NCBI RefSeq assembly: GCF_001179925.1
Contig: NZ_CVSF01000064.1
Coordinates: forward strand, 1-64,000
Direction: 5' to 3'
Length of the DNA: 64,000 nucleotides
From: Candidatus Pelagibacter communis
Lineage (GTDB): Bacteria; Pseudomonadota; Alphaproteobacteria; Pelagibacterales; Pelagibacteraceae
Below the pieces are notes generated by a model that saw nothing but the letters and a program-made list of their open reading frames with translations, did not search any database and was not told where the DNA came from. How positions within the stretch are numbered: the first letter of the stretch is position 1; each line of letters opens with the position of its first letter. Of this stretch, positions 60,573 through 63,002 are shown piece after piece. The position numbers and the translations under genes were made by a program.

Positions 60573-61484
60573 TTATTTAGCAAGTTTAGATAATTCTTGT
60601 ATATGAGCCGGCCTGGTTTCGCAACATCCTCCGAGAATAGTTGCTCCAGCTTCTTTAAATTTTTTAGCAAATTCTGACATTTTTTTTGGGGTTAAATCCT
60701 TACGCACACCCAAAAATTCATTAGGATTTCCAGTTTTACTTTTTTTATAAGCACCGGTGTAATTAGGTTTTGGATTTGTTTTTATAAAAGCATTAAGTTT
60801 AAATCCAAAAGGCACATTCAAACTTTTCAATTCGTCAATATTTAATTCATAATTTTCTGGAGAAATACAGGATAGAATGATTCCTAAAAGTTTTTCATTT
60901 TTAGTAACATTAATGATTTCTGAAATTTTTTCGCCACTTGGCAATCTTGTTCCTTCAGAAATATGAGCTCCTATTAAATATGGTTTATTAAACTTTTTAA
61001 TACTACTAATAGCGATCTTAAATTCTTTGATACTGCTCAATACATCAAAATAAAAAAAATCTACGTAAGGATTCAAAAGCTCAGCTTGTAAACTGAAATT
61101 ATCATTTATTTCTTCATCAGATCTCGGGTCAGCTTCATAAGTTAAAAATTGCGGAGGCAGTCCACCGGCTATTAAGATATGTGGATAAAGTTTTTTTGCT
61201 TTTAATGCAATTTCACCTGCTTTTTTATTTAGGTATTCAAATTTATCTTCAATATTGTTATCTCTTAATCGTATTTTTCTTGTAGTAAAAGTAGTAGTTA
61301 CAATTACTTCTGCTCCTGCCCTGATAAAATCGATATGAGTATCCAATAATAGTTTGTGATATTTTTCTTGAAGTAAAGCATTAGCACTCCATAAGGTTCC
61401 ATTAGGTTCCATGCCTCTTGCAAGTAATTCTTGTCCCATTCCTCCATCTAAAATTCTAGTTTGTTTGAAAAAATTTAAATCCAT
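60573..61484 (-). CDS. Homocysteine S-methyltransferase family (BhmT/MmuM-like)
   Basis: 303 residues. ILDGGMGQELLARGMEPNGTLWSANAL opens the family; IRAGAEVIVTTTFTTRKIRL follows; ILSCISPENYELNI gives one zinc cysteine and ATILGGCCETRPAHIQEL the other two. It transfers a methyl group to homocysteine to make methionine; the donor (betaine, dimethylsulfoniopropionate or S-methylmethionine) cannot be told from the sequence. The leader carries a SAM-II riboswitch and a SAM-V-like element, so methionine/SAM feedback is strongly suggested. A GAGGA ribosome site is three bases before the ATG. Confidence 0.9.
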   Translation of the reverse strand: MDLNFFKQTRILDGGMGQELLARGMEPNGTLWSANALLQEKYHKLLLDTHIDFIRAGAEVIVTTTFTTRKIRLRDNNIEDKFEYLNKKAGEIALKAKKLYPHILIAGGLPPQFLTYEADPRSDEEINDNFSLQAELLNPYVDFFYFDVLSSIKEFKIAISSIKKFNKPYLIGAHISEGTRLPSGEKISEIINVTKNEKLLGIILSCISPENYELNIDELKSLNVPFGFKLNAFIKTNPKPNYTGAYKKSKTGNPNEFLGVRKDLTPKKMSEFAKKFKEAGATILGGCCETRPAHIQELSKLAK

Positions 61485-61487
61485 ATA

Positions 61488-61533
61488 TCCTCACTTTTTT
61501 AGTGCTTCTGCTTAATGCAAGGTGCACAATACA
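61488..61533 (-). ncRNA. SAM-V-like riboswitch overlapping the ribosome site
   Basis: The minus strand shows TTGTGC (61529-61524), TTGCATTAA (61520-61512), AAGCAC, an A-rich linker and GTGAGGA (61494-61488). The succession TTGTGC..YTGCATT..AAG..AAAA..GGA resembles the SAM-V core. The last part is the Shine-Dalgarno sequence of the methyltransferase, and CAC (61504-61502) can pair with GTG (61494-61492), so ligand binding could hide it and block translation. Secondary structure was only judged by eye; the match is weaker than for the SAM-II element. Confidence 0.5.
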
Positions 61534-61561
61534 GTTCAAATACCTAACCGATTTATATGAA

Positions 61562-61607
61562 GATTCCATTTTAGCTGTTATGCCCGCAATAAGGATCAAA
61601 TCGGCTT
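61562..61607 (-). ncRNA. SAM-II riboswitch
   Basis: The minus strand contains, in order and with SAM-II spacing, GATTTGATCC (61602-61593), ATTGC (61590-61586), ATAA (61581-61578) and GCTAAAATGG (61575-61566). These match the SAM-II conserved core (GAUUUAACC, AUUGC, AUAAA, GCUAAAAAGG). GCC (61605-61603) can pair with GGC to close P1, and the loop TCC pairs with GGA for the pseudoknot. It begins seven bases after the oxygenase stop and lies upstream of the homocysteine methyltransferase, the family of genes SAM-II usually controls. Confidence 0.85.
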
Positions 61608-61613
61608 ACTAAT

Positions 61614-62237
61614 TTATATTTTGTTTTTTCGATTTGTAAAGATTATTTTTGCGTTAAATGAAAAAGATCTTCTTTCGCCATTAATGTTAAAAGGATAAAC
61701 AGTATGCATTAAATAATTTGGAAAAATTATAACATTTCCAACTATTGGTTTTACATTATGTATGCTTTTGCTTAAAAAAGCTTTTTGTCCATTAATAAAA
61801 TCAATTGTACCATTTGTTAAATCTTTTTTATTCTTAACTTTTTTGTTTGAAAAAATAAACTTAGGTATTTTTAAGTAACCTACTCCAGAAATATCTCCGT
61901 TGTGATAATGAATTGGATTGTATTCTCCTTTAAACTGTCTGACTACCCAAAAATTTAGTATCTTGATATCTTTTACATTTTTAACTTTTTCTTTAATCAA
62001 AAATTTTTTTATTATTTTTTTTAATTCTTTATCTATGTTTTTTTTTACAAAATCTCTAGAGAACAATAATTCATTTTTAATTTGACTTGCAAGTTTTGTT
62101 GAATAGTCTCTTTTCTTTGAGGTCGATTTTAGATCAAATTCATTATTTAATTTATTTATCAACTTCTTTGAAATTTTAGTTATACCTATAGTTGGACCGA
62201 AAGGTTTTATATTTTTCACGAGTTTTAAATATACCAA
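61614..62237 (-). CDS. Putative 2-oxoglutarate/Fe(II)-dependent oxygenase
   Basis: About 207 residues. IKILNFWVVRQFKGEYNPIHYHNGDISGVGYLKIP near 90-120 and GNVIIFPNYLMHTVYPFNINGERRSFSFNAKI near 168-200 resemble the prolyl-hydroxylase-like family with metal histidines (NPIHYH, LMH) and a C-terminal arginine for 2-oxoglutarate. Substrate unknown. No ATG is available: TTG at 62237 or GTG at 62219 must start it, so the exact N-terminus is uncertain. The SAM riboswitch starts seven bases after its stop, so read-through from here could feed the riboswitch. Confidence 0.7.
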   Translation of the reverse strand: MVYLKLVKNIKPFGPTIGITKISKKLINKLNNEFDLKSTSKKRDYSTKLASQIKNELLFSRDFVKKNIDKELKKIIKKFLIKEKVKNVKDIKILNFWVVRQFKGEYNPIHYHNGDISGVGYLKIPKFIFSNKKVKNKKDLTNGTIDFINGQKAFLSKSIHNVKPIVGNVIIFPNYLMHTVYPFNINGERRSFSFNAKIIFTNRKNKI

Positions 62238-62255
62238 TATAATTTTAATTCAACT

Positions 62256-63002
62256 TTAACTTAGAATTTTTGAACCAATTCTTATTGCCACAAAAATAAC
62301 TAATCCTGAGGTAATTATTGTTAATAACTTATTAGACAAAAATTTTAGATTTAAAAAGTTGCCTATTTGACCACCTAACAAAACTACTAAAAATAATATC
62401 CAATAATCAAAAATATCATTTAAAATATTTTGCTTGGTAAACTGACCAAAAATTCCTGAAATAGAATTTATTAGTATAAATAGTGATGCTGTGGTTGCGA
62501 TCTGTTTTGGATGTCCTGCTTTCAATAAAAAAAGGATAGGGCTTAAAAAAATCCCTCCTCCAATTCCAACAATACCAGATACTAACCCAAGTATAGATCC
62601 TATCAAAATTGAAAAAATTTTTGGTATGTCTCTCAATTTTAAACTGTCTTCTTTATATGAATTACTATTGATGAGCAGTAATACTCCAGCAATACTTAGA
62701 ACAAAAAATAAAATGATTTCAAATATCTCTTTTTCTAAACTGATTGATCCTCCTATAAAAGAAAAAGGAACAGACCCAATTAAATATGGAATTAACAATT
62801 TATGATTTAGATTTCCAGCTTTGATGTAATTTATAGAATTTCCTGAAACAACGATAATGTTACAAAACAAAGCTATAACTGGAATAATATAATATGGAAT
62901 ATCCCATATGAGCAATAACGCTAAATAAGTTGACCCACCTCCAAAACCAACACTAGAGTATAAAATAGCTGTTACAAAAAATAAAAGAGATAGTATAAAC
63001 AT
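62256..63002 (-). CDS. TauE/SafE-family membrane permease
   Basis: 248 residues with about eight membrane helices. ILYSSVGFGGGSTYLALLL near the start and ILGLVSGIVGIGGGIFLSPILFLLKAGHPKQIATTASLFILINSISG in the middle are the two repeated glycine-rich motifs of TauE/SafE permeases, which export sulfite, sulfoacetate or related anions. The substrate is not shown by the sequence. Its start codon lies 11 bases from the divergent moaB start. Confidence 0.88.
   Translation of the reverse strand: MFILSLLFFVTAILYSSVGFGGGSTYLALLLIWDIPYYIIPVIALFCNIIVVSGNSINYIKAGNLNHKLLIPYLIGSVPFSFIGGSISLEKEIFEIILFFVLSIAGVLLLINSNSYKEDSLKLRDIPKIFSILIGSILGLVSGIVGIGGGIFLSPILFLLKAGHPKQIATTASLFILINSISGIFGQFTKQNILNDIFDYWILFLVVLLGGQIGNFLNLKFLSNKLLTIITSGLVIFVAIRIGSKILS
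62994..62999 (+). promoter_or_regulatory. Candidate -10 box of moaB
   Basis: TATAAA lies 14 bases before the moaB ATG, inside the first codons of the divergent TauE/SafE gene. A start near 63006 would leave a leader of about eight bases. No clear -35 was identified. Confidence 0.3.

Follow-up and report, generated by a model that had tools for sequence, protein, structure and literature searches.

Candidate terminator-less tandems of a compact SAM-II-like element and SAM-V in metY and mmuM leaders of SAR11 bacteria

The mmuM locus and its SAM-aptamer-like elements

The window, that is, the whole 64-kb stretch of DNA analysed, carries on its minus strand an mmuM-like homocysteine S-methyltransferase gene, preceded by genes for a 2OG-Fe(II) oxygenase and a TauE/SafE-family transporter (Table 1). 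The methyltransferase ORF is the sole PF02574 match found in its genome (assembly 86% complete) and reaches no NCBIfam equivalog cut-off. The 129-base gap between the oxygenase and methyltransferase ORFs (61485-61613, minus strand) contains two SAM-aptamer-like elements. A sequence-only reading had filled this gap with a strong SAM-II match followed by a SAM-V-like element; both elements are present, but their strengths are reversed, the SAM-V half being strong and the SAM-II half weak.

Table 1. Features of the leader and its neighbourhood, in window positions. P_LR, predicted pairing between the 5' strand of the SAM-II-like element and the flank of SAM-V; R1 and R2, models described in the text.
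Feature	Position	Strand	Evidence or remark
TauE/SafE-family transporter gene, second gene upstream of the methyltransferase	62256-63002	-	PF01925
2OG-Fe(II) oxygenase, upstream neighbour	61614-62237	-	PF13759
Promoter-like site: TTTACA 61640-61635, 16-nt spacer, TATAAA 61618-61613	61613-61640	-	10/12 consensus letters
Compact SAM-II-like aptamer	61564-61609	-	R1 match; R2 28.6 bits; core pattern
Compact aptamer, putative P1	GCC 61605-61603 / GGC 61584-61582	-	
Compact aptamer, putative L1: GAUUU...UCC...AUUGC		-	
Compact aptamer, 3' parts	GCUAAA 61575-61570, GGA 61567-61565	-	
P_LR, predicted 5' strand GCCGAUUU	61598-61605	-	GCC common to P1, GAUUU common to SAM-binding loop
P_LR, predicted 3' strand AAAUCGGU, directly before SAM-V P1	61547-61554	-	Pairing probability 0.98, nested folding
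SAM-V aptamer	61491-61554	-	RF01826, 72.2 bits
Shine-Dalgarno-like GAGG, SAM-V 3' edge	61489-61492	-	Sequence
Homocysteine S-methyltransferase, mmuM-like, 303 aa	60573-61484	-	PF02574, E 1.5e-50; ATG at 61484

The downstream element is a plain member of the SAM-V family (cut-off 41 bits; E 7.2e-10 over 64 kb) and the only Rfam match at the gathering threshold within the window. It adjoins both the ribosome site and the start codon, which bears out the proposal of a SAM-V-like element containing the ribosome site. The stretch 61488-61533, the reality of which had been tied to a covariance-model hit, falls in this strong match. SAM binding and repression of translation have been reported for SAM-V representatives of metY and bhmT (PMC6061858, PMC5069961), the binding of SAM leading to a helix that occludes the Shine-Dalgarno sequence (PMC6061858). 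By analogy, the SAM-V of the window would repress translation at high SAM. The window copy differs from the rest of the family only by the SAM-II-like element directly upstream.

The upstream element (GCCGAUUUGAUCCUUAUUGCGGGC...ACAGCUAAAAUGGAA) escapes the Rfam SAM-II models: a search with RF00521 gave no match at E ≤ 10 for 61564-61609, and neither RF00521 nor RF01726 reports the element at that level. The other compact elements tested likewise reach no Rfam SAM-II family at its cut-off. This says little for the clade because both models are nearly blind there. RF00521 exceeds its cut-off in none of 121 genomes of the genus (78 have sub-threshold matches), and RF01726, the 'long loop' SAM-II model, in none of six SAR11 genomes. 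The SAM-II of the bhmT leader in an HTCC1062-like genome (G443) scores 15.5 bits against RF00521, and the metY copy in the window's own genome scores 20.4 bits against RF00521 and 17.4 against RF01726. Automatic annotation will thus miss SAR11 SAM-IIs. The upstream element also has a sub-threshold RF01826 match of 17.8 bits; the idea that it is a second SAM-V was dropped, since the SAM-II core and spacing fit better.

The core pattern GATTT-N(4-9)-ATTGC-N(7-30)-GCTAAA occurs once in the window, with a mean of 0.04 in 100 shuffles (four shuffles had one), and four times in the window's genome, three of these being at the metX, metY and mmuM leaders. Its RNA counterparts GAUUU, AUUGC and GCUAAA are invariant in 27 classical SAM-II copies. 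A model built from 27 classical SAR11 SAM-IIs, of metX and bhmT type only (R2), scores highest within the window at the upstream element (E 1.4e-5; next best 14.7 bits) and matches 85 of the 86 other sources tried at E ≤ 0.01, the remaining one (L208) being at 0.075. R2 alone is not decisive because it also gives a chance match of 33.1 bits, above the window's 28.6, at the start of a coding gene (smc by sequence) in another part of the genome; as sole proof of SAM-II kinship it was rejected for this reason.

The compact element has the same GAUUU, AUUGC and GCUAAA core as SAM-II (RF00521 / RF01726) and possibly its P1/P2 pseudoknot. It differs in a shorter P1 and spacer, in its predicted position near the 5' end of the mRNA and in scoring below the Rfam cut-offs. 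P1 in the window is 3 bp (GCC/GGC), short of the approximately 5 bp of the clade's metX and bhmT copies that membership would call for. Taken together, the core, spacing, gene context and conservation make it very probable that the upstream element is kin to SAM-II; it may bind SAM. The proposal of a tandem SAM-II/SAM-V in a SAR11-type genome is in this sense sustained, the SAM-V half by Rfam and the SAM-II half by the core and the model. The description of the SAM-II half as a strong match was too generous, the Rfam SAM-II models being silent at E ≤ 10, but its core, R2 score and recurrence do place it above chance.

Recurrence of the compact tandem across genomes and genes

Few bacteria in the sea are as abundant as those of SAR11. 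The exact compact pattern was found in 144 of 399 genomes of the genus, a control pattern having none among the matches listed. R1, a model of the compact element, matches 118 of 300 genomes of the genus, and SAM-V matches 144 of the 300. Among the R1 matches listed, 125 of 150 have SAM-V 6-17 nt downstream; conversely, 125 of the 158 pooled SAM-V matches listed have R1 upstream, a count that is less biased than that of the leader set described below. A scan of named genomes returned at least 120 stretches, and the 80 titles among the matches listed are all Pelagibacteraceae, Pelagibacterales or Pelagibacter. Viral contigs contained no match to the exact compact pattern.

At the level of the order, R1 matches 94 of 297 genomes and 2 of 11 genera. 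Five R1 matches were read in the second genus: four are metX-type SAM-IIs and one is a metY leader without SAM-V (genes by sequence). L360 (G488) of this genus is a metY-type leader with a SAM-II-like element (GUCGAUUU...) and no SAM-V match. The metX SAM-IIs of genus g7 (L361-L363) are near relatives of the compact element.

The compact element precedes SAM-V in 156 of 184 unique SAM-V leaders, comprising 114 of 121 metY and all 42 mmuM leaders but none of 18 bhmT leaders and none of three bhmT-like leaders without a recognised gene; this leader set is not random, pairs having been fetched partly because R1 had matched them, and related sequences are not independent counts. Genes were sorted by script on short protein motifs. 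Twelve rows were placed by hand (eight as metY, L122 as mmuM and three as bhmT-like), and family libraries were consulted for four proteins, one each of metY, bhmT and metX and one other. The metY of the window's genome (L011) exceeds the NCBIfam cut-off of TIGR01326, O-acetylhomoserine sulfhydrylase, and is preceded by a second compact tandem (G000:C1). Three leaders (L125, L128 and L138; two clearly and one probably mmuM) have a compact SAM-II with no SAM-V match.

The HTCC1062-like genome contains compact tandems before both metY and mmuM (L348, L349). For these two leaders the parts of PMC2704228 and PMC5069961 drawn on here give SAM-V alone, and in the literature drawn on the SAM-V leaders of metY and mmuM count as single riboswitches. 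The elements of the G443 metY, mmuM and bhmT leaders fall within intergenic coordinates printed in PMC2704228. In the literature searched, no description was found of metY or mmuM leaders in which SAM-V is preceded by a SAM-II that is compact or lacks a terminator; the 2009 tandem paper lies outside that scope and may mention it. Relative to the literature searched, the compact form of the SAM-II half is new; the SAM-V half is ordinary. If the compact SAM-II works as an aptamer, many metY and mmuM leaders would be double switches missed by current models.

A further leader, L418 (G515), combines a classical SAM-II, a terminator and SAM-V before an ORF that weakly resembles B12-independent methionine synthases; its best methionine-synthase match (E 9.4e-8) is below cut-off, and it has no Pfam match.

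Conservation of the compact element was judged from profile matches. The 22 copies of alignment A1 had been selected by a pattern that includes GCCGATTT, ATTG and CTAAA, so that their invariance is partly built in; the count among profile matches was used instead. All three core parts (GAUUU, AUUGC and GCUAAA) occur in 155 of the 156 profile matches upstream of SAM-V; the one match that does not show them all, L143, begins at the stretch end. This retention of core letters while the linker drifts argues against a decayed or purely structural remnant that does not bind SAM and leaves regulation to SAM-V alone. Such a remnant would agree with a P1 of only about 3 bp, with the failure of the Rfam models and with the report that the SAM-II domain of the bhmT tandem is silent in the full-length RNA in vitro (PMC11508383), yet overall it is rather improbable.

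Leader architecture: mRNA start and terminators

The promoter-like site of the window overlaps the 3' end of the oxygenase ORF and would place the mRNA start a few nucleotides from the compact aptamer. A plain promoter scan is not above chance, with one site found and 2.2 expected. Among leaders scoring at least 8, the -10 box ends exactly 6 nt before the GCC of the compact element in 81 of 116 metY and 30 of 39 mmuM leaders; the gap in the window is 7 nt. Promoter-like scores are slightly above those of shuffled sequences for metY (mean 8.2 versus 7.3; at least 9 in 28/122, against 14% of shuffles) and clearly above for mmuM (at least 9 in 35/40, against 23% of shuffles). From these sequence features the mRNA probably starts at or near the compact P1, which would explain why P1 is short.

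Terminator-like sites were defined as a stem of at least five pairs including three G-C pairs, a loop of 3-8 nt and then five T in eight. Such a site precedes SAM-V in all 18 bhmT leaders, in all three bhmT-like leaders and in one of seven metY leaders without the compact element. None is found before SAM-V in the 114 metY and 42 mmuM compact tandems (0/156, the window included), and none lies within 61400-61800 of the window. The one metY leader without the compact element that has such a hairpin before SAM-V is L144, which in this respect resembles the bhmT leaders.

The sequence-only reading had suggested control at two levels, the first element acting on transcription and the second on translation, and had pointed to a possible terminator-like fold between them. 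This part of the reading found no support: no such fold occurs in the interval searched, and the lack of terminator-like sites from the compact tandems leaves transcription-plus-translation control unsupported here. An arrangement of that type, in which SAM-II controls transcription termination and SAM-V translation, has been published for the bhmT tandem, with a terminator after SAM-II (PMC9481103). The original 120 SAM-II/SAM-V tandems, of 149 counted overall, are described as always having SAM-II before an intrinsic terminator (PMC9481103). Its extension to the compact tandems could appeal to the same two kinds of aptamer in the same order, to the clade's own bhmT leaders with a terminator after SAM-II (also PMC9481103, PMC5069961) and to a run of at least five T in 12 of the 156 compact linkers. 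Against the 0/156 count, and with neither a terminator-like site nor a T run in the linker of the window, it is very improbable.

A conserved complement between the two aptamers

In metY leaders, UCGGY stands just before SAM-V P1 and is complementary to GCCGA of the compact element. The two strands pair at five of five positions in one fixed register in 120 of 122 metY leaders; six other registers give 0/122. The UCGGY columns hold 1.4-2.0 bits of information (UCGG 1.9-2.0), versus 0.3-1.3 bits in neighbouring linker columns. The base opposite G is U in 106 leaders, C in 15 and A in one. In the window, AAAUCGGU could pair with GCCGAUUU to form eight pairs, including one G-U. UCGG occurs in the flank of none of the 18 bhmT leaders and in one of the seven metY leaders without the compact element, and this one (L066) ends within a compact element. 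The register counts omit L143 and L146, the compact segments of which are unreadable, and L127, L051 and L207, which have no GGY anchor. In a MAFFT alignment of the leaders of 69 tandems (A2), the row of the window is displaced by one base at the linker; a script that reads fixed registers was therefore used to count the pairs.

The mmuM leaders are more varied. P_LR is possible at 5/5 in seven of 40, at registers -1 to -3 (the window, L023, L160, L194, L201, L205 and L349). AUCAA or AUCUAA is found in 33 of 42 mmuM flanks, a weaker complement that can pair with part of the loop and is weak evidence. A few two-sided changes are seen, in P1 (GCC/GGC to ACC/GGU in L205 and L349) and in P_LR (C-G to U-A in L160 and L207; P1 of L160 is not kept as read). 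Covariation for P_LR is thin because its 5' strand hardly varies.

Conservation of this kind might also mark DNA rather than RNA, the inverted repeat GCCGATTT ... AAATCGG serving as a repressor-bound operator near the transcription start. Its first half lies at the predicted +1, but the half-sites are 45-59 bases apart at variable spacing, the first is embedded in a full SAM-II core and at the variable position pairing is maintained by G-U and G-C, all of which make an operator extremely improbable.

Nested folding, which represents neither the SAM-II pseudoknot nor the ligand, strongly favours P_LR over the compact P1 (probability 0.0005) in the window leader. Among leaders carrying the motif, the mean P_LR probability is 0.87 for 109 metY and 0.49 for 16 mmuM leaders. 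With shuffled flanks the mean falls to 0.206 from 0.865 (n = 125), a contrast that is overstated because the control was run only on leaders carrying the partner motif. As isolated helices, P_LR and P1 have predicted energies of -5.2 and -3.7 kcal/mol, a gap in the range where ligand binding could decide between them. Masking the compact aptamer leaves the predicted Shine-Dalgarno accessibility nearly unchanged in the window (0.499 versus 0.504) and shifts its mean little in metY (0.382 versus 0.420, n = 107) and mmuM leaders (0.453 versus 0.448, n = 15). Nested folding thus does not connect SAM-II with the ribosome site, and the link to the output is inferred.

Proposed coupling of the aptamers and comparison with known tandems

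The potential pairing of the SAM-II 5' strand with the SAM-V flank suggests cross-talk between the two sensors. The favoured interpretation, held with moderate confidence, is a terminator-less tandem of SAM aptamers coupled by a SAM-sensitive strand swap, with a single translational output by SAM-V. The mRNA of a methionine-synthesis gene would begin with this tandem. Its shortened SAM-II, with a P1 of some 3 bp, is close to the predicted start and could fold first during transcription. In SAM-free SAM-II, the 5' strand GCCGA(UUU) would be captured by (AAA)UCGGY, located 15-28 nt after the SAM-II CUAAA and just before SAM-V, to form P_LR. P_LR and the SAM-II P1 would be mutually exclusive because both use the same GCC. 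When SAM is plentiful, the SAM-bound fold of SAM-V would occlude the ribosome site and repress translation. The first aptamer would then be a conditional partner of the second, and coupling may run in either direction.

Alternatively, the upstream SAM-II could bind SAM and act by a route of its own, for example Rho-dependent attenuation or mRNA decay, UCGGY being incidental or having another role. The 33 of 40 mmuM leaders that keep the compact aptamer without a 5/5 P_LR fit such a route, as do L125, L128 and L138, which have the compact element without a SAM-V match. It does not readily account for a metY complement that hardly changes while the rest of the linker varies, nor for the absence of that complement from bhmT leaders and from metY leaders fully without the compact element, and is regarded as unlikely.

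A stricter form of the coupled tandem, proposed tentatively, is a kinetic lock in which the conserved helix would couple the aptamers mechanically and the first would have to read SAM in the brief interval before the second emerges. If true, this lock would join two aptamers of related classes directly in a single-output switch, which much of a major ocean genus would use ahead of metY and some of its lineages ahead of mmuM. The metY complement makes coupling between aptamers for the same ligand directly testable.

The bhmT SAM-II/SAM-V tandem shares with the compact tandem the order of the aptamers, the clade, an association with methionine-synthesis genes and the location of SAM-V at the ribosome site. 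Its SAM-II has a reported KD of 1.2 µM (PMC5069961). In vitro, sequence downstream in the bhmT tandem is reported to mask SAM-II by blocking its response to SAM, the function being left open (PMC11508383), which is a further likeness to the coupling proposed here. The near-invariant metY complement is a concrete, mutable cause of the kind that could explain the silence of SAM-II beside SAM-V. The two tandems differ in that the P1 of bhmT is longer and its long linker contains an intrinsic terminator, whereas the compact tandem has a P1 of about 3 bp and a short linker without a terminator-like site, precedes metY and mmuM rather than bhmT and, in metY leaders and the window, carries in its linker the complement of the SAM-II 5' strand. 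Pseudo-cooperative tandem riboswitches likewise have two aptamers for one ligand in one leader (PMC9481103). Each of their riboswitches is described as having its own expression platform (PMC9481103), whereas none was found for the first aptamer of the compact tandem, for which a helix running directly between the aptamers is proposed.

The bhmT leaders show a further peculiarity. In most of them 60-80 nt separate the ribosome site of SAM-V from the bhmT start downstream, L024, L025 and L157 being exceptions. Several (L366, L006, L140, L147, L151 and L155) have a short ORF 14-15 nt after GGAG, the end of which overlaps the bhmT start. SAM-V may thus act through a leader peptide in these leaders.
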